The position numbers and the translations under genes were made by a program. The notes under the pieces were generated by a model. It did no database searches. It was not told the origin of the DNA and was given only the letters and a program-made list of their open reading frames with translations. A stretch of 64,000 nucleotides of DNA from Arthrobacter sp. Marseille-P9274 (GTDB taxonomy: Bacteria; Actinomycetota; Actinomycetes; Actinomycetales; Micrococcaceae), in assembly GCF_946892675.1 (NCBI RefSeq), contig NZ_CAMPOV010000001.1:1772033-1836032 (forward strand), written 5' to 3'. This document shows positions 10,201-50,304 of this stretch, piece after piece. Within the stretch, counting starts at the first letter, position 1. Every line of letters starts with the position of its first letter.

Positions 10201-10228
10201 ATGAGGCCCCGGGCCGCTCTAAACTGAG
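10201..10228. terminator. Left half of terminator split by IS copy 1, with target duplication
   Basis: ATGAGGCCCCGGGCCGCTC (10201-10219) is the exact reverse complement of 11668-11686 on the far side of the IS. TAAACT (10220-10225) was the loop. GAG (10226-10228) is the target duplication repeated at 11668-11670. Without the IS, the site is a perfect 19-bp stem with a 6-nt loop between the convergent genes cysE and gnd. Confidence 0.93.
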
Positions 10229-10230
10229 TG

Positions 10231-10285
10231 AACTGCTCCCCAGAAGTTGGACTGAGAAATTCAGTTCCACTTCCGGGGAGCAGTT
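10231..10285 (+). promoter_or_regulatory. IS left-end stem-loop covering the orfA ribosome site
   Basis: AACTGCTCCCC (10231-10241) pairs with GGGGAGCAGTT (10275-10285), and inside it ACTGA pairs with TCAGT around GAAAT. T residues continue to 10288, directly before the orfA ATG. The 3' arm contains GGGGAG, the only ribosome-site candidate, 8 nt from the ATG. The structure could end incoming transcription and hide the ribosome site in any read-through RNA. Confidence 0.75.
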
Positions 10286-10288
10286 TTT

Positions 10289-10777
10289 ATGGATGCACGT
10301 AGTTCGTTGTCGGAGAACCAGCGGGAGGCCGCTGTAGCGTGGTTTGAGAAGGGTGTCGCCGACAGTGCGGCGGCGAGACTACTGGGTGTGTCTCGTTGGC
10401 CAGTCAAGCTTCTCTATCGGCGATGGAAAATCCACGGTCGAGGAGCGCTCATGGCCAAACCGACACGGCAGTCGTACCCGTTCGAGTTCAAGATCGCATT
10501 GGTCAAACGATTCCTTGCTGGTGAGACCGCTCAGGACCTCGCCGCGGAGACGGGCTTGTCCTCGGCTCGCCTGCTCGATCACTGGGTACGGAAGTATCGC
10601 CGGGAGGGTGCCGACGCTTTGCGCCCGAAGCCTAAGGGCAGACCACGGAGACCCGACGCTCCACCGCCTGCGGAGCCATCTGAGCTGGAACGATTGCGCC
10701 GGGAGAACGAACGGCTGCGGGCAGAAGTAGCCTACCTGGGAAAATTACGGGCCTTGAGGGCACCAAAACAACGGTGA
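10289..10777 (+). CDS. IS3-family transposase OrfA, copy 1
   Basis: The 162-aa protein has two helix-turn-helix units (ADSAAARLLGVSRWPVKLLY, residues 24-43, and AQDLAAETGLSSARLLDHWV) and a C-terminal leucine-zipper-like helix (ELERLRRENERLRAEVAYLG). In IS3 elements OrfA binds the terminal repeats and regulates transposition. Its stop TGA overlaps the GTG of orfB (GTGA at 10774-10777). orfB is in the -1 frame, so an OrfAB fusion by frameshift is expected for the family, though no canonical A6G slip site is seen. It is only about 80 percent identical to the OrfA of copy 2, with nearly all changes in the first 125 residues. Confidence 0.93.
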   Translation: MDARSSLSENQREAAVAWFEKGVADSAAARLLGVSRWPVKLLYRRWKIHGRGALMAKPTRQSYPFEFKIALVKRFLAGETAQDLAAETGLSSARLLDHWVRKYRREGADALRPKPKGRPRRPDAPPPAEPSELERLRRENERLRAEVAYLGKLRALRAPKQR

Positions 10778-11628
10778 AGGTTCAGGCCATCATCGCCCTC
10801 AAGGCCGACTTTTCACTCCCGGTTCTGCTGCAGGTCGCCGGCCTTGCAAGATCGACGTTCTTCTACCACCAGGCCCGACTCAGGGCTCCCGACCCGAAGG
10901 AAGCCATCAAGACCGCCGCCACGAAGATCTTCACCAACAACCACGGCAGATACGGGCACCGCCGCATCCACACTGAACTGACCAAGCAAGGCTGGACGAT
11001 CGCGAAGAAAACCGTACTGAAGCTCATGCGCTCCCTGCAGCTCGTCTGCAAGGTCCGGCAAAAGAAACGCTACAACTCCTACCAAGGCGAACAGGGCAAA
11101 ACTGCCCCCAACCTGCTGAACCGGGACTTCGACGCTGATGCCCCGAACCAGAAGTGGGTAACGGATGTGACCGAGTTCAGAGTCGACGGCCGAAAGCTCT
11201 ACCTTTCACCCGTCATGGACCTCTTCGACCGGCAGATCGTCTCCTACACCGTCGGCCTGTCCCCGAACCTGGCGCTCACCAACACCTCACTGCGTATTGC
11301 GCTGAGAACGCTCGAGCATGAGCAGAAACCGATCGTGCACTCAGACCAGGGATTCCAATACCAGCACGCCTCATGGCGGAGACTCTTACAGCACGCCAAC
11401 GCCATCCAATCGATGTCCCGCAAGGGCAACTGCTACGACAACGCAGTGATGGAAAACTTCTTCGGACACCTCAAGGAAGAACTCTTCCACCACGTCCGAT
11501 TCCTCAGCACCAGCGCACTGGAATCAGCACTCCACGACTACATCCGCTGGTACAACACCGAAAGGATCTCCACAAAGCTTGAGGGCCTGAGTCCGGTGCA
11601 ATACCGTGCTCAGGCCCTCGCGGCTTAG
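10774..11628 (+). CDS. IS3-family transposase OrfB (DDE integrase), copy 1
   Basis: The 284-aa protein holds the retroviral-type integrase core. It has an HTH_21-like region (HGRYGHRRIHTELTKQGWTI), then the catalytic triad Asp131 (WVTDVTEF), Asp191 (HSDQGFQYQ) and Glu227 (MENFFGHLKEE), with 35 residues between the last two as in IS3 elements (DD35E). It ends with the usual WYNTERISTKLEGLSPVQYR. It starts at a GTG overlapping the orfA stop and is probably made by coupling or as an OrfAB fusion. An 11-bp inverted repeat (11581-11591 with 11609-11619) lies inside the gene's last codons and could stop transcripts entering from the right. Confidence 0.95.
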   Translation: MKVQAIIALKADFSLPVLLQVAGLARSTFFYHQARLRAPDPKEAIKTAATKIFTNNHGRYGHRRIHTELTKQGWTIAKKTVLKLMRSLQLVCKVRQKKRYNSYQGEQGKTAPNLLNRDFDADAPNQKWVTDVTEFRVDGRKLYLSPVMDLFDRQIVSYTVGLSPNLALTNTSLRIALRTLEHEQKPIVHSDQGFQYQHASWRRLLQHANAIQSMSRKGNCYDNAVMENFFGHLKEELFHHVRFLSTSALESALHDYIRWYNTERISTKLEGLSPVQYRAQALAA

Positions 11629-11667
11629 GCTCTTATTTATCCGGTCCAGCTTCTGGGGACCAGTTCA

Positions 11668-11686
11668 GAGCGGCCCGGGGCCTCAT
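11668..11686. terminator. Right half of terminator split by IS copy 1
   Basis: GAGCGGCCCGGGGCCTCAT is the perfect complement of 10201-10219. Its first three bases are the target duplication. In the unoccupied chromosome this arm would close the hairpin shared by cysE and gnd, 19 bp from the gnd stop. Confidence 0.93.
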
Positions 11687-11705
11687 TGTTCCGGAATCCC
11701 GTGTC

Positions 11706-13142
11706 CTAGTGCGTGTCGACCGCTGATACTTCGGACTTGTCCCCGCTCCAGAGCGTGTGGAAGGTGCCCCCGGTATCGATCCGGCGGTAGGTGTGCGCCC
11801 CGAACAGGTCGCGCAGGCCCTGCGTCAGCGCGGCCGGCAGCCGCTTGCGGCGCAGGCCGTCGTAGTACGCCAGCGAACTGGAGAAGACCGGCACCGGAAT
11901 CCCCAGCTGTACCGCCGTGGCGACGACGCGCCGCCAGGCCGGAACGGCGTCGGCGATTGCGGCGGCGAAGGCCGGGTCGAACAGCAGGTTCGCGGGCTTG
12001 TCCTCGTCCGCGTACGCCTTCATGATGTCGTCCAGCAGCTCAGCGCGGATAATGCAGCCGGCCCGCCACAGGGAGGCGATCTCATCCAGCTTCAGGTCCC
12101 AGCCGTACTCGGTGGCGGCGGCGGTGAGCATGTCGATTCCCTGCGCATAGCTGACCAGCTTGGAGGCGAACAAGGCCTGCCGGACGTCGTCGACGAAGCC
12201 CTCCGGCACCTGGACCCGGTCCTCGTGGCCGACGAGGATGTCCTGCGCCAGTTCCCGCTGGTCGCGCTGCGAGGACAGCCCGCGGGCAAACACGGACTCG
12301 GCGATCCCGGACACCGGGGACCCCAGTTCCAGGGCGGACACTACGGTCCAGCGCCCGGTACCCTTCTGGCCCGCGGAGTCGACAACGACGTCGATAAACG
12401 GTTTCCCGGTCTTCGCATCCTGGTGGGCCAGGACCTCGGCGGTGATTTCGATCAGGAACGAGGATAGCGGTCCCTTGTTCCACTCGGTGAAGACCTCAGC
12501 CTGCTGGACCGGCTCCAGTCCGGCAGCCGAGCGCAGCAGGTCCGAGGCCTCGCCGATGACCTGCATGTCCGCATACTCAATGCCGTTGTGCACCATCTTG
12601 ACGAAGTGCCCTGCACCGTCGGTACCCACCCACCGGCAGCAGGGATCGCCGTCGTACTTCGCGGCAATCTTCTCCAGCATCGGTCCGAGGGAATCGTAGG
12701 ACTCGCGCGAGCCGCCCGGCATGATGGACGGCCCCAGCAGGGCGCCCTCCTCGCCCCCGGAGACGCCGATGCCGACGAAGTGCAGGCCCTTCTCCGCAAG
12801 GGCCGCCTCGCGCCGCCGGGTGTCCTCGTAATGGGAGTTGCCGGCGTCGATGACGATGTCGCCCTCGTCCAGCAGCGGGACCAACTGGTCGATCACCGAA
12901 TCCACCGGCCCTCCGGCCTTGACCATGATCAGCACGCGGCGGGGCTTTTCGAGGGCCTCGACCAGTTCGGCGAGGGTCTCCGTGCGGATGAAGTCGCCCT
13001 CATCGCCGTGGTTCTCCAGCAGTGCGTCCGTCTTGGCTGCCGAGCGGTTGTGCAGCGCCACGGTGTAGCCGTTGCGGGCGAAGTTGCGGGCAAGGTTGGC
13101 GCCCATGACGGCCAGGCCGGTCACGCCGATGTGTGCACTCAT
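11706..13142 (-). CDS. gnd: 6-phosphogluconate dehydrogenase, decarboxylating
   Basis: The 478-aa enzyme converts 6-phosphogluconate to ribulose-5-phosphate and CO2 in the pentose phosphate pathway. The Rossmann motif GLAVMGANLARN is near residue 8. ALHNRSAAKTD carries the Asn-Arg typical of NADP-using forms. GVSGGEEGA and HNGIEYADMQ hold active-site residues (the His-Asn and Lys in HFVKMVHNGIEY), and the C-terminal substrate loop HTYRRIDTGG is intact. The ATG at 13142 follows GGAGAC, and an upstream ATG at 13247 would add a non-conserved stretch. It converges on cysE through the terminator now interrupted by the IS. A zwf gene is also in this window. Confidence 0.96.
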   Translation of the reverse strand: MSAHIGVTGLAVMGANLARNFARNGYTVALHNRSAAKTDALLENHGDEGDFIRTETLAELVEALEKPRRVLIMVKAGGPVDSVIDQLVPLLDEGDIVIDAGNSHYEDTRRREAALAEKGLHFVGIGVSGGEEGALLGPSIMPGGSRESYDSLGPMLEKIAAKYDGDPCCRWVGTDGAGHFVKMVHNGIEYADMQVIGEASDLLRSAAGLEPVQQAEVFTEWNKGPLSSFLIEITAEVLAHQDAKTGKPFIDVVVDSAGQKGTGRWTVVSALELGSPVSGIAESVFARGLSSQRDQRELAQDILVGHEDRVQVPEGFVDDVRQALFASKLVSYAQGIDMLTAAATEYGWDLKLDEIASLWRAGCIIRAELLDDIMKAYADEDKPANLLFDPAFAAAIADAVPAWRRVVATAVQLGIPVPVFSSSLAYYDGLRRKRLPAALTQGLRDLFGAHTYRRIDTGGTFHTLWSGDKSEVSAVDTH

Positions 13143-13288
13143 TAAGTCTCCATTGCTGCTCTGCGGTCCGGCAGCGGTTGTGCCGGACAGTGGGATTCCT
13201 GCGTCCAGCCTAATGGGAGCCCCGGCACGAGGGAAAAGCGGTTGCACTATTTTGTCCGCGTTTGTCCGCGCGGACGGCGGCGGCCTTG

Positions 13289-14191
13289 CTAGAGGTCGTG
13301 GACGATCGCGGCTACGTCCTCCACGAGGGAGACGCCGTCGTCCATTTCGGCGCTGCCGGCCGAGAGCACGGCGATGCTGTATTCAGCGTTGCCCTCGCTG
13401 ACATGGCCAATGCTGTTGACGTTCCACAGACCGTCCTCGTCCTGCAGCCATCCGTTCTTGACAGCGACGGCGGCGTCGCGTGTTCCCGCGGGAACGCCCC
13501 AGTACTGCGATCCCTCCACGGAGTTCATGAGCTCGACCAGATAGCCGCGCTGGTCTTCGTCGAGCCAGTCCGTGCCTTTGGTGACCGCCTCGACGACCTT
13601 GAGCTGGTCTTCGGCCGTGGTCAGCGAGCCGCCCCAGCCGGGGCCGGATTCGGTACTGGACATCCCGAGCAGCTGGTAGGTCTCGTCCAGTCCGACGTTT
13701 CCGCCGATCCTCGCGTACAGCTCGTTCGTTGCGTCGTTGTCGCTCTTCGTGATCATCTGCCTCGAGAGCTCGATTTCCTCGGCCGAGAGCCCCCTGCCCT
13801 CTTCGGTGGCCTGGCGGATCAGCGACAGGACGATGGAGACCTTCACCACGCTGGCCTCCATGTAGCGCCGCTCGGACTCGTAGGTCCAGGTCTGGCCGGT
13901 GGCATCATCACGGACTGCCACAGAGAACGTCTGGCCGGCCCCCGCCGCCTGCTCAGCCATGGCCGCGCGGAACTTCTCCTCCCGGGTGCCGGAGCCATCG
14001 GCAGCCTGCGGCTCGGCGGCCGGAGGCTCGGTCGCCACTTGATCCGCCACGACGTCCTGGGCAGCGTGGGCGGTCGACGCGAGGATGGAACGGCCATCGT
14101 GACCAGCCAATCCCACGGAGGACGCCGTGAGCGTGGCGGCCGTCGCGGCGGCCAGGGTTCCGGCTATGGGCGGGGCAATGCGTTTGGGCAT
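13289..14191 (-). CDS. Exported class A beta-lactamase-like serine hydrolase
   Basis: The 300-aa protein has a signal-like start (MPKRI, then an Ala-rich hydrophobic run) with possible cleavage after AHA (residue 43), a Pro/Ala-rich linker to about residue 68, and a penicilloyl-serine hydrolase domain. Motifs in order are SVVK (114-117, nucleophile Ser114), SDN (150-152) and KNG (245-247, in place of KTG). The omega-loop Glu166 of true class A beta-lactamases is not evident. It is therefore more likely a peptidoglycan-related or uncharacterised hydrolase than a resistance enzyme. It is monocistronic between gnd and tRNA-Val. Confidence 0.8.
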   Translation of the reverse strand: MPKRIAPPIAGTLAAATAATLTASSVGLAGHDGRSILASTAHAAQDVVADQVATEPPAAEPQAADGSGTREEKFRAAMAEQAAGAGQTFSVAVRDDATGQTWTYESERRYMEASVVKVSIVLSLIRQATEEGRGLSAEEIELSRQMITKSDNDATNELYARIGGNVGLDETYQLLGMSSTESGPGWGGSLTTAEDQLKVVEAVTKGTDWLDEDQRGYLVELMNSVEGSQYWGVPAGTRDAAVAVKNGWLQDEDGLWNVNSIGHVSEGNAEYSIAVLSAGSAEMDDGVSLVEDVAAIVHDL

Positions 14192-14352
14192 ATCAACCTA
14201 GGGTCGGAAATTTTCCTCTACCTTGGTATCAAGCCGGGGCGTGCCTTGGCCAACCGGGAGGACGGTGTGTCGCCGGGACGGGCCGCCGTGACACACTAAA
14301 CGGGCGCCGCGCTTAAACGCGAACAGGACCCCGTCTCCGAGGTCCTGGCGGG

Positions 14353-14425
14353 TGGGTCCTACCGGGATCGAACCGATGACATCCACGGTGTAAACGTGGC
14401 GCTCTACCAGCTGAGCTAAAGACCC
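14353..14425 (-). tRNA. tRNA-Val (anticodon TAC)
   Basis: On the minus strand GGGTCTTTAGCTCAGCTGG starts the gene. The anticodon arm CCACG-TTTACAC-CGTGG holds TAC. The T arm CGGTTCGATCCCG and acceptor AGGACCC with discriminator A complete the cloverleaf. CCA is not encoded (CCC follows). Confidence 0.96.
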
Positions 14426-14486
14426 GTTGCGATGTCTTGTACAGTGCCGCAATGCGTTATCCGCCGCAACATCACAAGGAAATACC

Positions 14487-15365
14487 TTACCTGATAACCG
14501 GACCCGCTTGCCAATCGGACGCGCCCGAAGCAGGTTCAGCGGGCTCCGGAAGTTCGGCGGACAACGCCTGCAGCGATTCCGAGGTTCCGGCCTCGACCTT
14601 GACCGTGGCCAAGTCGTCTCCGCGAGTCCGGCCGCGGTTGATGATCACGACCGGCTTGTTCTGTTTGGCCGCGTGCCGCACGAAGCGCAGGCCGCTCATC
14701 ACGGTCAGCGACGACCCGGCCACCAGCAGCGCCGCCGCCGCGTCCACCAGTGCGTAGGCGGCCGCTACACGGTCCTTGGGAACGTTCTCGCCGAAGTACA
14801 CGAAGTCGGGTTTGAGCATCCCCCCGCAGATTTCGCAGGCGGCAACCACAAAACCCTCGGTATCGGAGACGTCCGCATCGGCGTCGGGAGCGACGTCCCC
14901 GGCATCGGACCGACCGGCCATCCAGCCCGCGTTCAGTTCCTCGAGCCGGAGCGCCAGGGCGGCGCGATCCACCGTTGTCCGGCAGTTGAGGCAGATTACC
15001 CGGTCGAAACGCCCGTGCAGGTCGATGACCTTTCGGCTGCCTGCGGCCTGGTGCAGCCGGTCAACGTTCTGGGTGATCAAGCCGGTCAGCACGCCCCGCT
15101 GCTCCAGCTCCGCGAGGGCGAAATGCCCGCTATTGGGCTCCGCCCGCCGCATGTGCCGCCAGCCGGCATGATTCCGCGCCCAGTACCTCCGGCGCAACGC
15201 CTCATCGGAGACGAACTGCTGGTAGGTCATGGGATTGCGCGGCACCGACCCCGGTCCGCGGTAGTCCGGGATGCCGGAGTCCGTGCTGAGCCCTGCCCCG
15301 GTCAGGACGGCCAGGTGCCGCCCGGAGAGCAGCTCCAGCACCTCAAGCAATTGGCCGCGGTCCAT
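14487..15365 (-). CDS. Sir2-family NAD-dependent protein deacylase
   Basis: The 292-aa protein contains the complete sirtuin signature: GAGLSTDSGIPDYRG (residues 23-37, NAD binding), TQNVDRLH (98-105), catalytic His117 in DLHG, and a structural zinc site Cys125, Cys128, Cys177 and Cys180. FGENVPK and the GSSLTV loop follow. An acidic insertion (about residues 150-170) between the zinc cysteine pairs is longer than usual. It removes acyl groups from lysines using NAD; its targets are unknown. The gene precedes tRNA-Val and has only 13 bp between it and the ahpE end, so it lies downstream of DUF3052-ahpE only if oriented together, which it is (all minus). Confidence 0.93.
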   Translation of the reverse strand: MDRGQLLEVLELLSGRHLAVLTGAGLSTDSGIPDYRGPGSVPRNPMTYQQFVSDEALRRRYWARNHAGWRHMRRAEPNSGHFALAELEQRGVLTGLITQNVDRLHQAAGSRKVIDLHGRFDRVICLNCRTTVDRAALALRLEELNAGWMAGRSDAGDVAPDADADVSDTEGFVVAACEICGGMLKPDFVYFGENVPKDRVAAAYALVDAAAALLVAGSSLTVMSGLRFVRHAAKQNKPVVIINRGRTRGDDLATVKVEAGTSESLQALSAELPEPAEPASGASDWQAGPVIR

Positions 15366-15378
15366 GGGCCGACCCCGC

Positions 15379-15837
15379 TCAGAGTTCCTTGAGGATGCGG
15401 TGGTATTCCTGAATGTCGCGCGCTTGGGTCCGCGGGTTCACGATGATGTGCCGAAGGATTCCCTCGGCGTCGATGATGAAGGTGCCCCTGGTCGCCATGC
15501 CGGATTCGTCGTCGAACACGTCGTATGTCCTGGCAACGCCGCCGTGCGGCCAGAAGTCGGCCAGCAGGTCGAAGTCGTAGTTTTCCTTCTCCGCGAAGGC
15601 GCGGAGCGCGAACTTGTGGTCGACCGAAATGCCCAGGACGCGGGCATTCTCGCTCTTGAACGACTCGAGATCATCGCGCAGTTCGCACAGTTCACCGGTG
15701 CAGATGCCCGAGAACGCGAACGGGTAGAAGACCAGGACGATCTTTTCGCCGCGCAGTGCCGACAGCCTGACGGGCTCCCCGAACTGGTTGGAAAGCTCGA
15801 AATCCGGTGCAGGCTGGCCAACTGTGAGTTCCGCCAC
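15379..15837 (-). CDS. ahpE: AhpE-type peroxiredoxin
   Basis: The 152-aa protein reduces hydroperoxides. The peroxidatic cysteine is Cys46 in AFSGICTGEL. The block LLADFWPHGGVARTYDVF is very close to M. tuberculosis AhpE (Rv2238c), as is the gene order ahpE / DUF3052 / aceE. Unlike that one-Cys enzyme, this protein has Cys51 five residues later, the position of the resolving Cys in alpha-type BCP. An intramolecular disulfide is therefore likely. The GTG at 15837 is chosen because AAGGGG in the end of the DUF3052 gene is well spaced. It is co-transcribed with DUF3052, 4 bp apart. Confidence 0.9.
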   Translation of the reverse strand: MAELTVGQPAPDFELSNQFGEPVRLSALRGEKIVLVFYPFAFSGICTGELCELRDDLESFKSENARVLGISVDHKFALRAFAEKENYDFDLLADFWPHGGVARTYDVFDDESGMATRGTFIIDAEGILRHIIVNPRTQARDIQEYHRILKEL

Positions 15838-15841
15838 GGCG

Positions 15842-16264
15842 CTACCCCTTGTTCCGCTTGCTGACCAGCCGCGCCGCTGCCCAGTCGTCGGAGACACCCG
15901 CGGAGGACGTGGCATGCAGGCCGGCGGTAGGAGCGGCCTCCTGGATTTCCGAGGGCGGTACATAACCGTCGCGCCCCGACTTAGGCGTGAGGACCCACAC
16001 CTGGCCTCCGGCGTCAAGCGTGGTCTGGGCATCCATCAGCGCGTCGACGAGGTCGCCGTCCCCATCACGCCACCAAATTATGACGGAGTCGACGGCCTCC
16101 TGGTCGTCTTCCGCCAGCAACTCGGAGCCGGTGAGTTCCTCAATGTCGTCGCGGAGATCAAAATCCACGTCGTCGTCGTAGCCGAACTCCTGTATCAGGT
16201 CCCCTTTTTTGAAACCCAATCTGCCCGCCACATTGTCAACCGCGGCGGTCTCGGCCTCGCTCAC
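15842..16264 (-). CDS. DUF3052 family protein
   Basis: This 140-aa acidic protein belongs to an actinobacterial family found next to aceE (M. tuberculosis Rv2239c/Rv2240c region). Recognisable parts are VAGRLGFKKGDLIQEFGYDDDVD, DSVIIWWRDGDGDLVDALMDAQ and VWVLTPKSGRDGYVPPSEIQEAA. There is no signal peptide or membrane segment. The function is unknown; conserved neighbourhood with the pyruvate dehydrogenase E1 gene and a peroxiredoxin suggests a link to central metabolism or stress, which is inference. It starts the ahpE transcript and is divergent from aceE. GAGGAG lies before the ATG. Confidence 0.9.
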   Translation of the reverse strand: MSEAETAAVDNVAGRLGFKKGDLIQEFGYDDDVDFDLRDDIEELTGSELLAEDDQEAVDSVIIWWRDGDGDLVDALMDAQTTLDAGGQVWVLTPKSGRDGYVPPSEIQEAAPTAGLHATSSAGVSDDWAAARLVSKRNKG

Positions 16265-16590
16265 TGTGCTCCTCCTCGTTGCAATTCGCTGCGCCCGGTA
16301 CGGACGCTGTTATGGATATTACAAGCCAACACCCTATTTGTGGTTGCTTCAAGCCGCATGACGGGCAGCAGTCAAAACCGACGGCGGCCCCGCGCCTGCG
16401 TGAAGGCCGTCACGTACTGCATAGTGGTTAGGCAAACGGTTAGAGTTGCACCAGTTGTACCGTCGGCGGAACCGGCCGCAGGAAACAACAGCCGACGCCT
16501 CCGGCGAAGAGGCCGAACCCGCCGTACCATCGGCCGGGACGCTTAATCAGAAAAGGCGCAGACACAATCTGCACATCAGAGAGGTTGGAC
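16265..16590. other. Divergent promoter region between DUF3052 and aceE (326 bp)
   Basis: This gap must hold promoters for both directions. No convincing sigma -35/-10 pair, operator palindrome or RNA structure could be assigned by eye. No open frame with coding character was found. GAGAGG at 16579-16584 is the aceE ribosome site. Confidence 0.5.
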
Positions 16591-19332: not shown

Positions 19333-19364
19333 CCTCGCGGCCGGCTTAGCCCGGACAGCAAGGC

Positions 19365-19398
19365 TGCGGCGGACACCCCTGAACGGGTGTCCGCCGCA
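19365..19398 (+). terminator. Terminator of aceE
   Basis: TGCGGCGGACACCC (19365-19378) pairs perfectly with 19385-19398 around a 6-nt loop, followed by GGCATTTT. A classical intrinsic terminator 32 bp after the aceE stop. Confidence 0.9.
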
Positions 19399-19500
19399 GG
19401 CATTTTCCGGCCTCCCGCAGCTACTGCCCGCCGGTGATTTAGTAGGAAACGCACAAAGCCCTGAATGGAGCCGGGACCGGCAACTGCGTATGCTCAATGC

Positions 19501-20772: not shown

Positions 20773-20867
20773 CTTCGCCGCCTTGTAGACTTCCTACAAA
20801 GCGGCCCGGTGAGCTTCGTCCGCCGAAACACCCTTGGAACTGCACCCTTTTTGGAAAGCTGGATAAC

Positions 20868-23262: not shown

Positions 23263-23279
23263 CCTCCCGCAGGGAAGCC

Positions 23280-39086: not shown

Positions 39087-39117
39087 GCGCGTCTTCCCGG
39101 CGGACCGGGAGGCCCAT

Positions 39118-39651
39118 CTAGCGGCCAGGGCTCAGCGTCCCATCGAAACCGGCGATGAGTTCCCGCCGCGGCACGTCCCGCTGCACGGTTTCCAGCGGCT
39201 GACCGTTCCGCAGTTCGAGGACCGTGAGCAGCTCGTGGGCGTCCAGCGCGGCCTTCAGCTGTGCCGCCTGCGTCCGGTCCAGCTCCATCAGCGCGAGCTG
39301 GAAGTCCAGGAAGCCCGCCTGTCCCCCGGCCGCCGCCGCGAGTTCACCGCCCTCGTACGTACCGCCGTCGTAAATAAAGGTGAAGGCCTCGGCGGGCGAG
39401 TCCGGCACCTGCTGGTAATCGATGGCCAGAATCCGGCCCAGCGGCAGTTGCAGTGACGTCCCGTCCAGGACTCGAGCGGCCGCCCCGCGGGGATCTTCGC
39501 CGCTCTTGACCAGGCCGGCCGGCAAGGCCAAGCCGCCCTTGGGGTCCGGGGCCAGCAGGACCGACCCGCCGACCGTGCGGACGATGACGGCCACCGAGGC
39601 AGGCCGTTTCCAGACGGAACCGTAGAATCCATCCAGGTGCTGCTTGGTCAC
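39118..39651 (-). CDS. NUDIX-fold protein with degenerate NUDIX box
   Basis: The 177-aa protein shows the fold start SVAVIVRTVGGSVLLAPDPKGGLALPAG, but the box that should read GX5EX7REUXEEXGU is LVKSGEDPRGAAARVLDGTS, lacking the REXXEE glutamates that bind magnesium. Hydrolase activity is therefore doubtful. It may be a binding or scaffold member. It is encoded 76 bp after ffh on the same strand and leads the alpha/beta hydrolase. Confidence 0.7.
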   Translation of the reverse strand: MTKQHLDGFYGSVWKRPASVAVIVRTVGGSVLLAPDPKGGLALPAGLVKSGEDPRGAAARVLDGTSLQLPLGRILAIDYQQVPDSPAEAFTFIYDGGTYEGGELAAAAGGQAGFLDFQLALMELDRTQAAQLKAALDAHELLTVLELRNGQPLETVQRDVPRRELIAGFDGTLSPGR

Positions 39652-39727
39652 AACTGCCCTCCCTGCTCGGCCTGCCTCGGCGCGCTGCAGCAGGATCCGG
39701 CAAAGCCGCCGGACCTTGCGTTGAAAG

Positions 39728-41311: not shown

Positions 41312-41483
41312 GTGCCGTGCACTTCTTTCGTCGATCTTCGGTCAGATCCGGCGGGCATGGCCGGAGTACAGCTTTTCCAGCGTACCAAGTATGGACTTGA
41401 GGTTGGTCCCGGACGCCCCGATGGCGGATCCGAAATCGGGCCAAGCGGGCGACAGTTCGCCCATCCGGTGGCATGGTGTGAAT

Positions 41484-42935: not shown

Positions 42936-42996
42936 GAAGGGCCGCCCCGGGAACGACAGCCACGATATTCGTGCTGCGCCCCGGGGCGGCCCTTCT
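42935..42996. terminator. Bidirectional terminator between zwf and glnB
   Basis: AGAAGGGCCGCCCCGGG (42935-42951) and its perfect 17-bp complement (42980-42996) enclose a 28-nt loop that itself can pair partly (CACGA/TCGTG). It begins at the last base of the zwf stop. Confidence 0.85.
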
Positions 42997-43034
42997 GCTT
43001 CCGGCCTCACCGTCCTGCGTGCCTGCCGGATAGC

Positions 43035-43373
43035 TCAGATGGCGGCTTCGCCCCGTTCTCCGGTGCGGACCCGCACGGCTTCCTCGACGTTGATCAGCCA
43101 TACCTTGCCGTCGCCGGCGCGGCCCGTGTTGGCGGTGGCGACGAGGACGTCGACGATGTCGTTGGCCCATTCGTCGGCCACCAGGACCTCGATCCGCAGC
43201 TTCTTCAGCAGGTCGACGGTGTACTCTGCGCCGCGGTAGACCTCGGTGTGTCCGCGCTGCCGACCGTATCCGCTGGCTTGGCTGACCGTCAGTCCCTGGA
43301 CGCCGTAGCTCTCCAGGCTGCCGCGGACGTCTTCGAGCTTTTCCGGGCGGATGATGGCGGTGACCAGTTTCAT
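43035..43373 (-). CDS. glnB: Nitrogen regulatory protein P-II
   Basis: The 112-aa trimeric sensor reports 2-oxoglutarate and ATP/ADP. The T-loop is RQRGHTEVYRGAEYTVDLL with the modifiable Tyr51, and the C-terminal signature GDGKVWLINVEEAVRVRTGERG is present. Its ATG overlaps the amtB stop (ATGA), the standard amtB-glnK arrangement in which P-II plugs the ammonium channel. The glnD gene that normally follows in actinobacteria is absent here. Confidence 0.96.
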   Translation of the reverse strand: MKLVTAIIRPEKLEDVRGSLESYGVQGLTVSQASGYGRQRGHTEVYRGAEYTVDLLKKLRIEVLVADEWANDIVDVLVATANTGRAGDGKVWLINVEEAVRVRTGERGEAAI

Positions 43374-44674
43374 GCCGTTACCTCTTCCTTGGAACCTTCG
43401 TGGGCGCTGCGGTCGGTGGCCGGGTGCGGGACGAACGTTCCGCCGGTGCCCAGGCCGCCGAACTCGTAGGCGCTTTCTGCATGCTGCGTCAGGTCCACGC
43501 CGGTGACTTCCTCTTCCTCGCTGACCCGGAAGCCCACGGTCTTGTGGATGGCCAGGCCGATGAGGACCGTCAGGATGGCGCAGTAGACGACGGAGACGAC
43601 TGCAGCAACAACCTGGGCCCACAGCTGGGCGAAGCCGCCGCCGTAGAAGAGGCCGCCGCCGGCGCCGTCGACCGGGAGGGCGATGAAGCCCAGGGCGAGC
43701 GTACCGACGATACCGGCGACCAGGTGGACGCCGACGACGTCGAGGGAGTCGTCGTAGCCGAGCTTGTACTTCAGTCCAACACCCAGGGCGGCGAGGACAC
43801 CGGCGACCAGGCCGAGGCCGATCGCGCCGACCGGCGACACGTTCGCACAGGCCGGGGTGATGGCGACCAGTCCGGCCACCACGCCGGAGGCTGCGCCGAG
43901 CGAGGTCGGGCGGCCATCGCGGATGCGTTCGGTTACCAGCCAGCCGAGCATGGCAGCGGCCGGGGCGGCCATGGTGTTGATCCAGATGAGGCCGGCTTCC
44001 TCAGCAGTGCCGGCAGCTCCGCCGTTGAAGCCGAACCAGCCGAACCACAGCAGCGCAGCGCCGAGCATAACGAACGGGATGTTGTGCGGACGCTGCGCCG
44101 GGTCCTTGCCGAAGCCCTTGCGCTTGCCGAGGATCAGGGCGAGGATCAGCCCGGCCATGCCGGCGTTGATGTGGACCACGGTGCCGCCGGCGAAGTCGAT
44201 GGCCTCCCCGGCCCAGGAGCCGATGGCGCCCTCTGCGCTGAGCAGGCCGCCGCCCCAGACCATGAAGGCCAGCGGGCAGTAGACCAGCGTGACCCAGATC
44301 GGGACGAAGAGGGCCCAGGAGCTGAACTTGGCGCGATCGGCGATGGCTCCGGAGATGAGCGCTACCGTGATGATCGCGAAGGTGGCACCGTAGCCTGCAC
44401 CGATCAGGTCCTCGGTGTTCAGCAGGCCTTCCATGCCGAAGGAGGCGAACGGGTTGCCGAACAGCTGCGCCACCCCGTCGCCGCCGCTCATGGAGTAGCC
44501 CCACAGCACCCACACCACGGCGACCAGACCGATGGAAATGAAGCTCATCATCATCATGTTCAAGGCGGCCTTGGCACGGGTCATGCCGCCGTAGAAGAAT
44601 GCCAAACCTGGCGTCATGAGCAGCACAAGGGCCGCCGAGATCATTACCCAGACGTGACCTGCTGACAGATCCAT
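43370..44674 (-). CDS. amtB: Ammonium transporter
   Basis: The 434-aa membrane protein has about 11 helices. It starts MDLSAGHVWVMISAALVLLM and contains TPGLAFFYGGM, DFAGGTVVHINAGMAGL (pore His) and GVHLVAGIVGTLALG (second pore His). The ATG at 44674 is preceded by GAGAGG; an ATG at 44761 would add a non-membrane extension. The first gene of amtB-glnB. Nitrogen-responsive control is expected from the family, but no AmtR/GlnR box was identified. Confidence 0.95.
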   Translation of the reverse strand: MDLSAGHVWVMISAALVLLMTPGLAFFYGGMTRAKAALNMMMMSFISIGLVAVVWVLWGYSMSGGDGVAQLFGNPFASFGMEGLLNTEDLIGAGYGATFAIITVALISGAIADRAKFSSWALFVPIWVTLVYCPLAFMVWGGGLLSAEGAIGSWAGEAIDFAGGTVVHINAGMAGLILALILGKRKGFGKDPAQRPHNIPFVMLGAALLWFGWFGFNGGAAGTAEEAGLIWINTMAAPAAAMLGWLVTERIRDGRPTSLGAASGVVAGLVAITPACANVSPVGAIGLGLVAGVLAALGVGLKYKLGYDDSLDVVGVHLVAGIVGTLALGFIALPVDGAGGGLFYGGGFAQLWAQVVAAVVSVVYCAILTVLIGLAIHKTVGFRVSEEEEVTGVDLTQHAESAYEFGGLGTGGTFVPHPATDRSAHEGSKEEVTA

Positions 44675-44849
44675 TTTCACGTCCTCTCGTCCATGGGCGG
44701 GCTGTTCCCGCATCTGCATCAAGATTGCCGGGCACGTGTTTCCTGCGATGGGTGGCCACATTGCGGGAAAGTTACAAGGAATGCGCGCAGGTAAAACCCG
44801 CTTGTCGTGCGTGTTTCAGACGTGTTTCACACCCGGCTAGGGTTGATCC

Positions 44850-46106
44850 ATGCCCCTCTTCCGCCGGTTGGTGACCGTTCCGGGCGCCCCTCGAGACGTC
44901 CGCGACAAAGTGTCCCGCGCCCCGCTACCGCGGGACATCAAGGTCCTGATCGCCGCCGCGTTCGTTATCGCCCTTGGCTATGGCATCGTCGCGCCGGTCC
45001 TGCCACAGTTCGCCGCGAGTTTCAACGTAGGCGTGGCAGCCGCCAGCGTCATCGTCAGCGTCTTCGCCTTCATGCGCCTCGTCTTCGCTCCCGTCGGCGG
45101 TGCCCTCGTCGGCAAGTGGGGCGAGCGCCGTGTCTACCTCATTGGCCTGCTGATTGTTGCGGTCTCGACCGGCGCCTGCGCCATCGCACAGGACTACTGG
45201 CAGCTGCTGCTGTTCCGCGGCCTTGGCGGCGCCGGTTCCACCATGTTCACCGTCTCCGCAACCGCCCTCATTCTCAGGCTCGCCCCGCCGAACAACCGGG
45301 GCAGGGTGTCCGGCGCCTACGCGTCAACCTTCCTCCTGGGCGGTATCCTCGGCCCGGTCGCCGGCGGCCTGCTGGCAGGGTTCGGACTGCGCATGCCCTT
45401 CATCGTCTATGCCGTCGCGCTGGTCATTGCCGCCGCGGTGGTCGCCGTGATGCTGAAGAAACCGCCGGCCGGAACCGGCGAGGACGTCCCCGTTCCCGAG
45501 CCGATGGCCGTGCGCGAGGCGTTGGCGGACCCCGCCTACAGGGCGGCGATCGTATCCTCGTTCGCGAATGGCTGGGCGACCTTCGGCGTCCGGATGGCGC
45601 TGATTCCTATTTTCGCCGCGGCCGTACTGGGAGCCGGGCCGGCGACCGCCGGCCTTGCGCTCGCGGTTTTCGCCGTGGGCAACGCACTGGCCCTGACATT
45701 TTCCGGCAGGCTCTCCGATTCCGCCGGGCGGCGGCCTTTGGTGATCGTCGGGCTGGTCATCGCGGGGCTGTCCATAGCCGCCATTGGATTCACCGAGTCC
45801 GTCCCGCTCTTCGTGGCCGCTTCCATAACGGCGGGTTTCGGTTCGGGCCTCCTCGGTCCGGCCCAGCAGGCCGCGGTCGCCGACATCATCGGCAATGACC
45901 GCACCGGCGGCAAGGTGCTGGCGGTCGTTCAGATGGCTACGGACGGCGGCGCCATCCTCGGCCCGGTGCTGGCCGGCGTCCTGGCAGACCGCCTCGGCTA
46001 CGACTGGGCCTTTGCCGCCACCGGAGCCGTCGCGCTGGCCGCGGCGCTGCTGTGGGCGCTGTTCGGCCGCGAAACCCTGGCCAGGCCCTCCCCGCCGAAG
46101 TCCTGA
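44850..46106 (+). CDS. MFS transporter
   Basis: The 418-aa protein has 12 predicted membrane helices in two halves. The motif-A-like loop between helices 2 and 3 is GGALVGKWGERRVYLIG, and the second half repeats it in SGRLSDSAGRRPLVIVG. The first 28 residues are polar and basic. The drug/sugar efflux type is likely; the substrate cannot be told. TAGGGT ends 6 nt before the ATG, with TTCAGA 17 bp upstream, so a leaderless transcript is likely. It is divergent from amtB (175 bp). Confidence 0.87.
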   Translation: MPLFRRLVTVPGAPRDVRDKVSRAPLPRDIKVLIAAAFVIALGYGIVAPVLPQFAASFNVGVAAASVIVSVFAFMRLVFAPVGGALVGKWGERRVYLIGLLIVAVSTGACAIAQDYWQLLLFRGLGGAGSTMFTVSATALILRLAPPNNRGRVSGAYASTFLLGGILGPVAGGLLAGFGLRMPFIVYAVALVIAAAVVAVMLKKPPAGTGEDVPVPEPMAVREALADPAYRAAIVSSFANGWATFGVRMALIPIFAAAVLGAGPATAGLALAVFAVGNALALTFSGRLSDSAGRRPLVIVGLVIAGLSIAAIGFTESVPLFVAASITAGFGSGLLGPAQQAAVADIIGNDRTGGKVLAVVQMATDGGAILGPVLAGVLADRLGYDWAFAATGAVALAAALLWALFGRETLARPSPPKS

Positions 46107-46121
46107 CCCATTAAGGCACCC

Positions 46122-46468
46122 ATGCAGGACGATCAGGTAGACCGCAACCTCAAGGGAACGGACGATCTCGACGTCGACGGCTGGAACAAGGCCGACTGGA
46201 ACGGCGTCTTCGCCCACCACCATACGGACGACGTCCTCGTCGATTGGAAGGGCTAGGAACCCACGCACGGCGTCATCGAGCATATTGACGCGATGAAGGC
46301 GTGCGTGCAGGCCGCAGATGGGACACCGCCCCGCATCCCCGCCCACCCATCCGCTTCGGATCAGGCGAGTGGACCTGCGTCATCGGGGAATTCGAAGACG
46401 GCAGCCGAAGGGTGACTGTGGCCAAATGGAAGGACGGCGCGATCGCCGACGAGTATATTTGGGCCTAG
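46122..46468 (+). pseudogene. NTF2/SnoaL-like protein, disrupted
   Basis: Translation from ATG 46122 gives a SnoaL-like start (WNKADWNGVFAHHHTDDVLVDWKG) of 44 codons, then an in-frame TAG (46254). The family sequence continues through the stop (EPTHGVIEHIDAMKA) and then shifts frame near 46336-46350 into GSGEWTCVIGEFEDGSRR and VAKWKDGAIADEYIWA, ending at TAG 46466. One nonsense mutation plus one frameshift, with homology kept on both sides, marks a recent pseudogene of a small polyketide-cyclase-like or steroid-isomerase-like protein. It lies 15 bp after the MFS gene. Confidence 0.8.
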
Positions 46469-46481
46469 ACCCCGCAGCGAA

Positions 46482-46514
46482 CGAAAGCCGCCCACCCTCG
46501 CTGGGCGGCTTTCG
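46482..46514 (+). terminator. Terminator after the pseudogene
   Basis: CGAAAGCCGCCCA (46482-46494) pairs perfectly over 13 bp with TGGGCGGCTTTCG (46502-46514) around a 7-nt loop. It closes the MFS-pseudogene transcript. Confidence 0.85.
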
Positions 46515-46612
46515 TAGTGAGGACAGTGGCCCGGCCGAAGAGTGAACCGCGGCTGGATGGGCAGGAAACCCAGCCGGCAAGGCAGGACCGGCCGGAGCAA
46601 GAGAAGGGAAGC

Positions 46613-47950
46613 ATGGACACCGCCACGCTCACCTTCGCGCCGCCCTGCGGTCCGGTGCACGCGCGGGATGACGGCGCCGTCGTCCGGGCCACCGGCATTC
46701 CCTACGCGACCGCAGACCGCTTCGCCGTCCCGGTCCCGTCGCGGGACCGGACAGAACCGTTCGTGGCGGCGGAACCGTCGCCGGCCTGCCCGCAGGTCCG
46801 CTCACGCTTCCTCGCCGAAGTCCTTGGCGACGCGCTGGCGGGCCTCCGCCAGGATGAGCATTGCCAGCGGCTCTCCATCACGCTGCCGCGTAATGTGCGA
46901 ACCGACGAGCGTCTTCCGGTCATGGTCTGGATCCATGGAGGTTCGTATACCACCGGGGCCGGCGACGCTCCGATCATGGACCCGGCCCGGCTGGTCGCCG
47001 AACAACGCGTAATCGTGGTGGCGGTGACGTACCGGCTGGGTCTCTTCGGCTTCCTGGGATCCGGGCACACCCGGCCCGCCAACCTCGGGCTGCTGGACCA
47101 ACTCCAGGCCCTGCGCTGGGTGCAGCGCAACATCCCGGCCTTCGGCGGCGATCCGGACCGGGTCACCCTGTTTGGCCAGTCCTCGGGCGGCGACGCCGTC
47201 GCCCATCTCATGGCGGCTCCCGGGGCGGAAGCGCTGTTTCGCAGGGCCATCCTCCAGAGTCCGCCGCTGGGCATCTCCCGCGGCCGGCACAGGATGCACG
47301 CCGCCATGGCCCGGGCGGCGGAGGCGGTCACCGCCGATATGCCAGCCGACGAGGTCGTCGCGCTGCAGTCCGAGGTCCAGCGGCATGCCGCTTCGTTCGG
47401 GCTTATGGGGCAGATGGCGTTCGGCACCCAGTACGGGCACCATCCCCTGCCGGCGGAACACGGGATCAATGCGGCCTGGGACCGCACAGCCCCGCAGATC
47501 GACATCCTCATCGGCCACACTGCCGAAGAGGCGCGGCTCTATCTGCCCACGGTGCCTGCACTGCAGCGGGCCATTCGGGTGCCGCTGATCGGTGCCCTGA
47601 TCCGCCGCGCCATCGTCAGGACCGTGACGGCGGCGGTCTACTCCCGGGCCATCCGCCGGTTCGCCAGGCGCCATGCACGTGCCGGCGGCATCGCCCACAG
47701 GTACGTGATCTCCTGGGCCGCCCCCGGCAATCCGTACGGCTCTGCCCACACAATCGACCTGCCGCTGCTGCTCGGCACCCGGCAGTCCTGGGCCGCGTCG
47801 CGGTTGCTGGCCGGGGTCTCGTGGGAGACCGTCGACGAACAGGGCCGGCGGCTGCGGCAGTTGTGGGCCGATTTCTCCCGCGGGGTCCCGCTGCAGGAGA
47901 GGGGCCGCATCCCCGGCCTTCTGAGCTATCGCCGGATCAAGCGTCGGTGA
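46613..47950 (+). CDS. Type B carboxylesterase
   Basis: The 445-aa protein has the type B esterase layout: oxyanion HGG (residues 108-110), nucleophile Ser190 in FGQSSGG, Glu in HTAEEARLYLP, and catalytic His in GSAHTIDLPLLLG. The usual GESAGG elbow is GQSSGG. There is no signal peptide, so it is cytoplasmic. GAGAAGGGA precedes the ATG. Substrate unknown. It ends 4 bp before the operator of the dioxygenase gene. Confidence 0.9.
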   Translation: MDTATLTFAPPCGPVHARDDGAVVRATGIPYATADRFAVPVPSRDRTEPFVAAEPSPACPQVRSRFLAEVLGDALAGLRQDEHCQRLSITLPRNVRTDERLPVMVWIHGGSYTTGAGDAPIMDPARLVAEQRVIVVAVTYRLGLFGFLGSGHTRPANLGLLDQLQALRWVQRNIPAFGGDPDRVTLFGQSSGGDAVAHLMAAPGAEALFRRAILQSPPLGISRGRHRMHAAMARAAEAVTADMPADEVVALQSEVQRHAASFGLMGQMAFGTQYGHHPLPAEHGINAAWDRTAPQIDILIGHTAEEARLYLPTVPALQRAIRVPLIGALIRRAIVRTVTAAVYSRAIRRFARRHARAGGIAHRYVISWAAPGNPYGSAHTIDLPLLLGTRQSWAASRLLAGVSWETVDEQGRRLRQLWADFSRGVPLQERGRIPGLLSYRRIKRR

Positions 47951-47952
47951 AT

Positions 47953-47982
47953 ACTTGAAACTTCAATAAAAAACCGTACACT
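47953..47982 (+). promoter_or_regulatory. Leaderless promoter with overlapping operator, dioxygenase gene
   Basis: TTGAAA (47955-47960, -35) and TACACT (47977-47982, -10) are 16 bp apart; the ATG follows after exactly 6 nt and no ribosome site exists, so the mRNA should start at the ATG. TTGAA-AC-TTCAA (47955-47966) overlaps the -35 and matches the operator at 37105-37120, as expected for a repressor. Confidence 0.7.
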
Positions 47983-47988
47983 GGAACC

Positions 47989-48786
47989 ATGCCTGAAACC
48001 GCCACTCTCCCCCCTGTCCTCTTCCTCAGCCACGGCGCTCCCCCGCTGGCGGACGACGCAACGTGGACGCGGCAGCTGGCCGACTGGTCCACCGGCTTCG
48101 ACAAGCCGAAGGACATCCTGATGGTGTCCGCGCATTGGGAGAACGCCCCCGTCACGCTGAGCGCCACCGAGCGGAAGACCGACCTCGTCTACGACTTCTG
48201 GGGTTTCCCGCAGAAGTACTACGACGTCACCTACGACGCCCCGCTGGCCCCGGAACTGGCTTCCGAGGTGGACCGGCTGGTGTCCGTGCACGGCCATCAC
48301 GTGGAGCACGACGAGTCCCGCGGCCTCGACCACGGCGCCTACGTTCCGCTGGTGGAGATGTTCCCGGACGCGGACGTTCCTGTGGTGCAGATGTCAATGC
48401 CGACACTGGATCCGCAGGGCCTGTTCGAGCTCGGTAAGTCCCTGGCCCCGCTCCGCGAGCGCGGTACGCTGATCGTGGGCTCCGGCTTCACCACCCACAA
48501 CCTGCGCTGGTTCAACCCCGCGGCGGGCCCGGACACGACCCCGCCCGCGGCCTCGAGCGAGTTCGACCACTGGGCCGAGGAGGCGATGGCCCGCGGCGAC
48601 GTCGATTCAATCCTCGACTTCCTGCATAAGGCGCCGGCCGCGCGGGAGGCACATCCGCGTTCCGAGCACTGGGCCCCGCTGTACGTTGCCCTCGGAGCCG
48701 CCTACGCCTCCAGCGGCATCGAAGCCAAGACGGCGATCGACGGGTTCTGGTTCGGCCTCTCCAAGCGCTCCTGGACGCTGACCTAG
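47989..48786 (+). CDS. LigB/DODA-type extradiol dioxygenase (YgiD-like)
   Basis: The 265-aa protein belongs to the class III extradiol ring-cleavage family. Metal-ligand candidates are His15 (LFLSHGAPP) and His49 (MVSAHWEN), with His in LDHGAYVPLVEMF and GSGFTTHNLRWF. Related enzymes open catechols or L-DOPA. The substrate here is unknown. It is monocistronic, leaderless, and shares an operator motif with the VOC gene. It ends 39 bp before a terminator split by the second IS copy. Confidence 0.9.
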   Translation: MPETATLPPVLFLSHGAPPLADDATWTRQLADWSTGFDKPKDILMVSAHWENAPVTLSATERKTDLVYDFWGFPQKYYDVTYDAPLAPELASEVDRLVSVHGHHVEHDESRGLDHGAYVPLVEMFPDADVPVVQMSMPTLDPQGLFELGKSLAPLRERGTLIVGSGFTTHNLRWFNPAAGPDTTPPAASSEFDHWAEEAMARGDVDSILDFLHKAPAAREAHPRSEHWAPLYVALGAAYASSGIEAKTAIDGFWFGLSKRSWTLT

Positions 48787-48825
48787 CAGCGGCCCGGGAC
48801 CGTGCGGCAACAGGCCCTCAATACT

Positions 48826-48845
48826 GAAGGCGCCTCCTGCGAATT
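48826..48845. terminator. Left half of terminator split by IS copy 2, with target duplication
   Basis: GAAGGCGCCTCCTGCG (48826-48841) is the exact reverse complement of 50289-50304 beyond the IS. AATT (48842-48845) is the target duplication and was the loop. Without the IS the site is a perfect 36-bp palindrome between the convergent dioxygenase and ftsY genes. Confidence 0.94.
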
Positions 48846-48847
48846 TG

Positions 48848-48903
48848 AAGTGCTCCCCGGAAGTTGGACTGAGAAATTCAGTTCCGACATCCGGGGAGCA
48901 CTT
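48848..48903 (+). promoter_or_regulatory. IS left-end stem-loop, copy 2
   Basis: AAGTGCTCCCCGG (48848-48860) pairs perfectly over 13 bp with CCGGGGAGCACTT (48891-48903), then TT and the orfA ATG. Compared with copy 1, the C-G pair in AACTG/CAGTT is G-C here (AAGTG/CACTT): both sides changed and the stem was kept. Confidence 0.78.
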
Positions 48904-48905
48904 TT

Positions 48906-49394
48906 ATGTATGCACGTAGTTCGTTGTCGGTTGTGCAGCGGGAGGCCGCTGTAGCGTGGTTCGAGAAGGGCATCGCAGATACGGCGACCGCAACCATACT
49001 GGGCGTGGCCCGCTGGCCGGTTAGGCACCTTTATCGGCGGTGGAGGATCCATGGTCGAGGAGCGCTCGTGGGCAAACCGACAAAAAAGGCGTACTCGTTC
49101 GAGTTTAAGCTCGCCTTGGTAGAGAAGTTCCTGGCCGGTGAGAGCGCTTCGGACCTCGCGGCTGAGGCGGACCTGTCCTCACCTCGTCTGCTCGAGACAT
49201 GGGTACGGGTATATCACCGCCAGGGCGCGGACGCCCTGCGTCCGAAGCCTAAAGGCAGACCGAGGAAGCCCGGCGCTCCACCGCCGGCGGAGCCATCTGA
49301 ACTGGAGCGGCTGCGCCGGGAGAATGAACGGCTGCGGGCGGAAGTGGCCTACCTGGGAAAATTGCGGGCCTTGAGGGCACCAAAACAACGGTGA
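48906..49394 (+). CDS. IS3-family transposase OrfA, copy 2
   Basis: The 162-aa protein has the same layout as OrfA of copy 1: N-terminal helix-turn-helix (ADTATATILGVARWPVRHLY), second helix-turn-helix (ASDLAAEADLSSPRLLETWV) and the leucine-zipper-like end (ELERLRRENERLRAEVAYLG). About 33 of the first 125 residues differ from copy 1, whereas the last 37 are identical. The TGA overlaps the orfB GTG. The DNA-binding half may therefore have been exchanged or evolved faster than the catalytic part. Confidence 0.93.
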   Translation: MYARSSLSVVQREAAVAWFEKGIADTATATILGVARWPVRHLYRRWRIHGRGALVGKPTKKAYSFEFKLALVEKFLAGESASDLAAEADLSSPRLLETWVRVYHRQGADALRPKPKGRPRKPGAPPPAEPSELERLRRENERLRAEVAYLGKLRALRAPKQR

Positions 49395-50245
49395 AGGTTC
49401 AGGCCATCATCGCCCTCAAGGCCGACTTTTCGCTGCCGGTTCTGCTGCAGGTCGCCGGCTTGGCCCGTTCGACGTTCTTCTACCACCAGGCCCGACTCAG
49501 GGCTCCCGACCCGAAGGAAGCAGTCAAGAGCGCTGCCACGACCATCTTCACAAAGAACCATGGCAGATACGGGCACCGCCGCATCCACACTGAACTGACC
49601 CGGCAAGGGTGGACGATCGCGAAGAAGACCGTGCTGAAGCTCATGCGTTCCCTGCAGCTCGTCTGCAAGGTCCGGCAAAGGAAACGCTACAACTCCTACC
49701 AAGGCGAACAGGGCAAAACTGCCCCCAATCTGCTGAACCGGGACTTCGATGCCGATGCCCCGAACCAGAAGTGGGTAACGGATGTGACCGAGTTCAGAGT
49801 CGACGGTCGAAAACTCTACCTCTCACCCGTCATGGACCTTTTCGACCGGCAGATCCTCTCCTACACCGTCGGCCTGTCCCCGAACCTGGCGCTCACCAAC
49901 ACCTCACTGCGTATGGCGCTGGCAACGCTCGAGTATGGGCAGAAACCGATCGTGCACTCAGACCAGGGATTCCAATACCAGCACGCCTCATGGCGGAGAC
50001 TCCTGCAGGGCGCCAACGCCATCCAATCGATGTCCCGCAAGGGCAACTGCTACGACAACGCAGTGATGGAAAACTTCTTCGGACACCTCAAGGAAGAGCT
50101 CTTCCACCATGTCCGATTCCTCAGCACCGGCGCACTCACATCAGCCATCCACGAATACATCCGCTGGTACAACACCGAAAGGATCTCCACAAAGCTTGAG
50201 GGCCTGAGCCCGGTGCAATACCGTGCTCAGGCCCTCAAGGTTTAG
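49391..50245 (+). CDS. IS3-family transposase OrfB (DDE integrase), copy 2
   Basis: The 284-aa protein keeps Asp131, Asp191 and Glu227 of the DD35E triad and differs from copy 1 at about 18 positions, mostly conservative and many near the C-terminus (STGALTSAIHEYIR, ALKV). It is intact and probably active or recently active. Start and coupling are as in copy 1. Confidence 0.95.
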   Translation: MKVQAIIALKADFSLPVLLQVAGLARSTFFYHQARLRAPDPKEAVKSAATTIFTKNHGRYGHRRIHTELTRQGWTIAKKTVLKLMRSLQLVCKVRQRKRYNSYQGEQGKTAPNLLNRDFDADAPNQKWVTDVTEFRVDGRKLYLSPVMDLFDRQILSYTVGLSPNLALTNTSLRMALATLEYGQKPIVHSDQGFQYQHASWRRLLQGANAIQSMSRKGNCYDNAVMENFFGHLKEELFHHVRFLSTGALTSAIHEYIRWYNTERISTKLEGLSPVQYRAQALKV

Positions 50246-50284
50246 GCTCTTAATTACCCAGTCCAGCTTCAGGGGACCAGTTCA

Positions 50285-50304
50285 AATTCGCAGGAGGCGC
50301 CTTC
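50285..50304. terminator. Right half of terminator split by IS copy 2
   Basis: AATT (50285-50288) is the second copy of the target duplication, and CGCAGGAGGCGCCTTC (50289-50304) is the perfect complement of 48826-48841. Confidence 0.94.

Follow-up and report, generated by a model that had tools for sequence, protein, structure and literature searches.

Target choice by most insertion sequences (ISs) of the IS3 family is treated as weak or regional. Group IIC introns insert beside terminator hairpins, doing so by RNA-based retromobility without a DDE transposase, and IS1272 belongs to the IS1182 family. In the part of PMC5678879 available to us, IS1272 of Staphylococcus is described as undergoing stem-loop-replacing transposition into inverted repeats of unrelated sequence; IS1397, ISKpn1, and others are reported to target repetitive extragenic palindromic (REP) units (PMC1525189, likewise available in part). 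The window analyzed in this study, a stretch of 64,000 nucleotides from Arthrobacter sp. Marseille-P9274 (contig NZ_CAMPOV010000001.1, positions 1,772,033 to 1,836,032), carries two 1439-bp copies of one IS3-family (IS150-like) element. The insertions of this element and its relatives center on the loops of hairpins, for the most part between genes that converge, and the preference extends throughout the IS150-like clade in five phyla. The transposase probably prefers the loops of terminator-like stem-loops, giving a 3–4-bp duplication within the loop or at its edge.

The two window sites were read base by base and then subjected to an inverted-repeat search. Copy 1 splits a perfect palindrome (19/19 pairs, loop TAAACT) and is flanked by the duplication GAG, the right copy of which opens the 3' arm. 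A second perfect palindrome (16/16 pairs, loop AATT) is split by copy 2, whose duplication, AATT, is the entire loop. The first-pass annotation, made from the letters of the window, had given the same element lengths, stems, loops, and duplications, and these are exact to the base; it had also placed both targets between convergent genes, and the neighbors are indeed genes for a hexapeptide transferase and 6-phosphogluconate dehydrogenase at copy 1 and for a LigB-type dioxygenase and an SRP54-type GTPase at copy 2. Judged from their place and form, the two hairpins would be bidirectional terminators.

Equivalent places were compared in nine congeners. In the closest of these (G006), in which the neighboring genes are 95% and 93% identical, neither site holds the element and each palindrome is intact, with a 15-bp stem and a 10-base loop at site 1 and a 15-bp stem and the loop GTT at site 2. 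The hairpin predates the insertion at both window sites, as the first-pass annotation had expected of empty sites. In the 110-base stretch at the equivalent place, a perfect stem of at least 10 bp is present in four of the nine congeners at site 1 and in seven of the nine at site 2, G006 being included in both counts; these stems mostly have a different sequence, and the remaining congeners have imperfect or weak stems only.

The search was extended to 245 genomes of the family, in which the element was found in 31 genomes at 76 places. Flanks were extracted and element ends were called from the conserved repeat, giving 79 hits, of which 72 copies were scored; the seven dropped were the second copy in L084, with a miscalled right end, hits lying inside L151 and L152, the second of the L142 hits, and L145, L146, and L147. 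The flanks of L128, L129, and L130 are near-identical, and these three are therefore not independent; they lie in one genome (G131), where the three copies occupy long palindromes that are nearly identical to one another and seem to be a repeated element. Because a measure based on perfect stems alone overlooked imperfect hairpins, a mismatch-tolerant stem score centered on the insertion was adopted, with a threshold of at least 8. By this measure 56 of the 72 copies lie in hairpins as compared with 1.7% of nearby positions (n = 1800), and so most delimited copies carry a stem-loop, as had been anticipated. Perfect stems of at least 9 bp occur at 41/72 insertions; the corresponding frequencies are 0.23% at nearby positions and 0.14% when the left flank of one copy was paired with the right flank of another. 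A complementarity score of at least 9 is reached by 57/72, as against 1.6% nearby and 2.8% with mismatched flanks. Segments of 64 nt have a median folding energy of -35.2 kcal/mol at the insertions versus -19.4 kcal/mol. Seven of the eight delimited copies in the Arthrobacter genome itself are in hairpins (scores 19, 16.5, 14, 14, 19, 15, and 11).

The 83 hairpin sites from the family and from the more distant relatives described below define the position of the insertion. The center of the duplication minus the center of the loop has a mean of 0.48 and a standard deviation of 2.2, and the duplication lies inside the loop, to within 1 nt, at 67 of these sites. It is 3 bp long at 67 sites, 4 bp at 11, and absent at 5. 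Only a T tract on the right is present at 18 sites, only an A tract on the left at 8, both at 12, and neither at 45; nothing firm emerged among the 83 sites on the orientation of the element relative to terminator polarity.

Neighboring genes were classed by a heuristic based on G+C content at third codon positions, which assigned 45 of the 72 copies and left 27 unclassed. Of the classed copies, 32 separate convergent genes, and 30 of these are in hairpins; nine lie between tandem genes (six in hairpins), one between divergent genes (none), and three inside genes (none). IS3 and nine other families are over-represented between convergent genes, according to the available part of PMC9208149. 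When random positions were drawn in the same 42 intergenic gaps, 6.05 hairpin matches were expected and 36 were observed; within 2 nt of the loop center, 25 were observed and 1.91 expected (P ≤ 5e-6). The earlier suggestion that two loop insertions would be unlikely by chance is borne out by stem counts that lie far above background even inside the same gaps. As a control, matches to an IS481 model in the same genomes were scored: only one of 13 well-delimited sites, defined by a duplication of at least 4 bp and clear ends, is in a hairpin (18 rows scored, two with a score of at least 8), these matches representing three elements only. Other IS3 elements, with at most 31% identity, gave 0/9 hairpins; the calling of their ends was poor, and this result is not relied on.

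More distant relatives were collected by scanning one genome per species and keeping the best 80 of a larger number; these have 43–79% identity. Seventy-three of these loci were examined, seven at contig ends being left out by hand, and 33 were used after filtering for an inverted repeat of at least 17 of 26, a margin of at least 2, a duplication of at least 3, and flanks of at least 60. L165 was removed as a duplicate of L132, and L167, which scores 10, was left out by hand. Among these copies with clear ends from the best 80 relatives, 27 of 33 score at least 8 (28/34 with L167) versus 3.4% in the control (n = 825). The hairpin-inserted relatives span Actinomycetota, Pseudomonadota, Bacillota, Bacteroidota, and Fibrobacterota, and in the aligned hairpin targets of this set an A tract often precedes and a T tract often follows the stem, the form of an intrinsic terminator that can be read both ways. 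Counted by identity band, hairpins are found at 30/34 sites (at least 70%), 17/24, 11/15, 10/12, 9/11, and 6/9 (below 46.5%), and in the OrfB tree hairpin sites are spread throughout the whole IS150-like clade. The preference attributed by the first-pass annotation to an actinobacterial element is therefore real but is wider than actinobacterial. A separate phylum-wide draw of 396 genomes had, apart from the own genome, no match at E ≤ 1e-75. Ten plasmid copies were examined among 2006 records with a match, and six of these score at least 8 (control 2.8%, n = 250); L344, one of the lower-scoring copies, has unreliable ends.

Escherichia coli IS150 lies within the same clade, its OrfB being 46% identical. 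A sample of 14 places (L273–L286), picked from 40 among the 6053 that exist and comprising 11 distinct flank sets, was inspected. Twelve of the 14 (nine distinct flank sets) adjoin annotated hok, mok, or Hok-family genes, and the Rfam sok model scores above its cut-off in seven of nine loci tested. Four alignments place the junction in the 3' arm of the sok AAAAGCCCC...GAGGC hairpin and not in its loop. IS150 thus resembles the window element in its clade and in having its junction within a hairpin, but differs in revisiting, in this sample, one kind of locus and in entering the arm or loop edge. Insertions of IS150 at hok/sok in several evolution-experiment lineages are listed as inactivation of redundant functions in the available part of PMC5419217, which also mentions IS150 hotspots.

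The element shows the features of the IS3 family (Table 1). There are two overlapping frames with a helix-turn-helix in orfA, and OrfB has matches to the rve and rve_2 domains and to NF033516 (323 bits, cut-off 160); residues Asp131, Asp191, and Glu227 are unchanged across 15 relatives, the DD(35)E pattern of the integrase core. The ends are TG...CA inverted repeats bordered by the 3–4-bp duplication. In the OrfB tree, the element falls, apart from other IS3 elements, in the IS150-like clade, a 104-row ingroup (support 97/95) to which InsK of E. coli also belongs; the outer rooting is unsure owing to the length of the outgroup branches.

The element also has hairpins at its own ends. Among 90 distinct left ends, 84 have a terminal repeat that pairs with a complementary stretch further downstream (median z of -7.4 versus simple letter shuffles), and 72 of the 90 have a run of at least four T residues at positions 35–75, near the orfA start, so that the left end itself looks like a terminator. 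An end-hairpin score of at least 12 is reached by 95/125 left ends and 79/125 right ends as compared with 1.9% of the interior.

Several variants of the element were observed in the family. In two copies of the Arthrobacter genome (L151 and L152) the same second element of ~1.45 kb interrupts the unit at one point; the two are in different hairpins, each with its own duplication, and the broken unit therefore seems to have been mobilized in trans. Two copies of a larger form (L111, 2770 bp, and L112, 2769 bp) also occupy different hairpins; the passengers in L112 are an ArsR-type regulator and a cation-efflux protein, and a similar efflux frame was seen by eye in L111. In other longer forms additional DNA separates orfB from the right end: L086–L088, L090, L092, and L109 (1870–2141 bp) and L091 (3027 bp), which encodes an extracytoplasmic function-type sigma factor.

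Table 1. Features of the two insertions and their surroundings, in window coordinates
Feature	Position	Strand	Remark
IS3-family (IS150-like) element, copy 1	10229..11667	+	direct reading, inverted-repeat search
Same element, copy 2	48846..50284	+	DNA 89% identical to copy 1
orfA, copy 1	10289..10777	+	162 aa, helix-turn-helix
orfB, copy 1	10774..11628	+	284 aa, DD(35)E integrase core; 4-base overlap with orfA
orfA, copy 2	48906..49394	+	162 aa
orfB, copy 2	49391..50245	+	284 aa
Left palindrome half, copy 1	10201..10219		putative terminator stem
Right palindrome half, copy 1	11668..11686		starts with GAG duplication
GAG target duplication, left copy	10226..10228		right copy 11668-11670
Left palindrome half, copy 2	48826..48841		
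Right palindrome half, copy 2	50289..50304		
AATT target duplication, left copy	48842..48845		right copy 50285-50288
Left-end hairpin	10231..10285	+	terminal inverted repeat and complement (arms 88% complementary); leads into T run, orfA start
Hairpin near right end	11581..11619		within end of orfB
Hexapeptide transferase gene	9597..10190	+	left of copy 1
6-Phosphogluconate dehydrogenase gene	11706..13247	-	right of copy 1
LigB-type dioxygenase gene	47989..48786	+	left of copy 2
SRP54-type GTPase (FtsY-like) gene	50371..51660	-	right of copy 2

Group IIC introns share with the element the neighborhood of terminator hairpins but are distinguished from it by retromobility in place of a DDE transposase. 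IS1272 resembles it in using inverted-repeat targets of unrelated sequence, but deletes the stem-loop and leaves no duplication, whereas the window element keeps the hairpin, split, and duplicates 3–4 bp; at the window sites, which were compared with the empty ones, each half is retained along with the duplication. IS1397 and ISKpn1 are similar in belonging to the IS3 family, in targeting intergenic palindromes, and in that the transposase is said to choose the target (PMC1525189, in the part available). Their target is a repeated family of sequence-related palindromes, whereas the targets of the window element are mutually unlike and are found in many hosts. The comparison with IS1397 made in the first-pass annotation is therefore apt as to manner of working but not as to the target. 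When the two window palindromes were tested for membership in such a repeated family, the only exact matches to 17 bases of arm 1 in the own genome were its own two halves; one further place matches with one mismatch and fifteen with two, a number close to that of the control. For arm 2 together with its loop, 18 bases were searched, and even with up to two mismatches allowed they matched only their own two halves.

A number of observations weigh against a preference of the transposase for hairpin loops. Sixteen of the 72 family copies score below 8, and none of the three copies classed as inside genes has a hairpin, so the hairpin is preferred and not required. One copy in the Arthrobacter genome (L148, C1:696423) has DNA 99% identical to copy 1 but scores 4.0, without a hairpin. 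The proportion with a stem is 43/68 when distant copies are scored regardless of the quality of the end call, and the plasmid copies of ISEcB1 and ISEnfa3 score 3 and 4. The mutual complementarity of IS150 flanks, 4 to 7.5, is that of the background, with no centering on the loop; taken with its junctions, IS150 supports insertion within hairpins but not loop-centered insertion. Aligned targets share a trend of A-rich, C-rich, loop, G-rich, and T-rich segments, and partial sequence recognition is therefore possible. Positive supercoiling, which disfavors cruciform extrusion, is expected to build up between convergent genes.

Survivorship, in which insertion is near-random and copies persist only between convergent genes where terminators already sit, agrees with the location of 32 of the 42 classed intergenic sites between convergent genes and of only three of the 45 classed copies inside genes. 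It is nevertheless very improbable, since hairpins and loop centers are hit far beyond expectation within the occupied gaps themselves and six of the nine tandem-gene copies are still in hairpins; survivorship alone was rejected on the basis of the same-gap control. That the palindromes were created by insertion, or are part of a longer element end, could be imagined from the way the halves abut or include the duplication, but the arms vary among copies and both palindromes are whole in the closest insertion-free congener, on which ground this origin was rejected and has a practically negligible probability. Targeting of one repeated palindrome family, like that of IS1397 and ISKpn1 on REP units, is hardly credible: although the available literature assigns those elements to the same IS family and L128–L130 have near-identical palindromic flanks in one genome, the arms vary among copies and several congeners bear different stem-loops at the same place, and the proposal was rejected because the window arms have no other exact copy in their own genome.

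The main rival is dyad-sequence recognition, in which the transposase would read a double-stranded motif, e.g. C-rich and then G-rich half-sites, without folding of the target. Aligned targets are rich in A and C to the left and in G and T to the right, and PMC1525189 ascribes target choice by IS1397 and ISKpn1 to their transposases; both points are compatible with such a motif. Within 26 bases of the insertion, however, nearly all target columns are below 0.7 bits and none is above 0.82, and pairing flanks across copies removes the complementarity (2.8% versus 57/72), so that a consensus alone cannot account for the pairing. We consider recognition of a dyad motif without folding unlikely, and it could be combined with recognition of shape. 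The target sequences differ, which leaves the hairpin as the common cue.

If the transposase prefers hairpin loops, the OrfA or OrfAB protein would recognize a two-fold symmetric or folded target shape rather than a sequence, and the target DNA would be folded, as a cruciform or hairpin, when attacked. The loop of a terminator may be a safe haven for both host and element. The terminator-like hairpins at the ends of the element would then stand in for the terminator that it splits, and the left-end hairpin may hide the ribosome-binding site or shield the transposase gene from read-in transcripts. A broader proposal, which we advance tentatively and rate at a little under an even chance, is that shape-reading hairpin targeting is ancestral to the IS150-like clade and leads to insertion into intrinsic terminators in hosts of many phyla, that the left-end hairpin restores termination, and that targeting of REP units by IS1397 and of sok by IS150 are specialized forms.

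Although structure-directed target choice is already known, terminator-loop targeting by the IS150-like clade appears to be new; we found no description of it in the open-access literature searched, where the available parts of PMC6211511, PMC2817692, PMC5771124, and PMC5001619 add nothing on terminators as targets, and it may be in print elsewhere. The parallel insertions of IS150 at hok/sok may have arisen from target preference without selection. A hairpin preference that holds across phyla, if true, would help to explain how these elements are tolerated, would predict where they land, and would offer a tool for terminator-directed integration.

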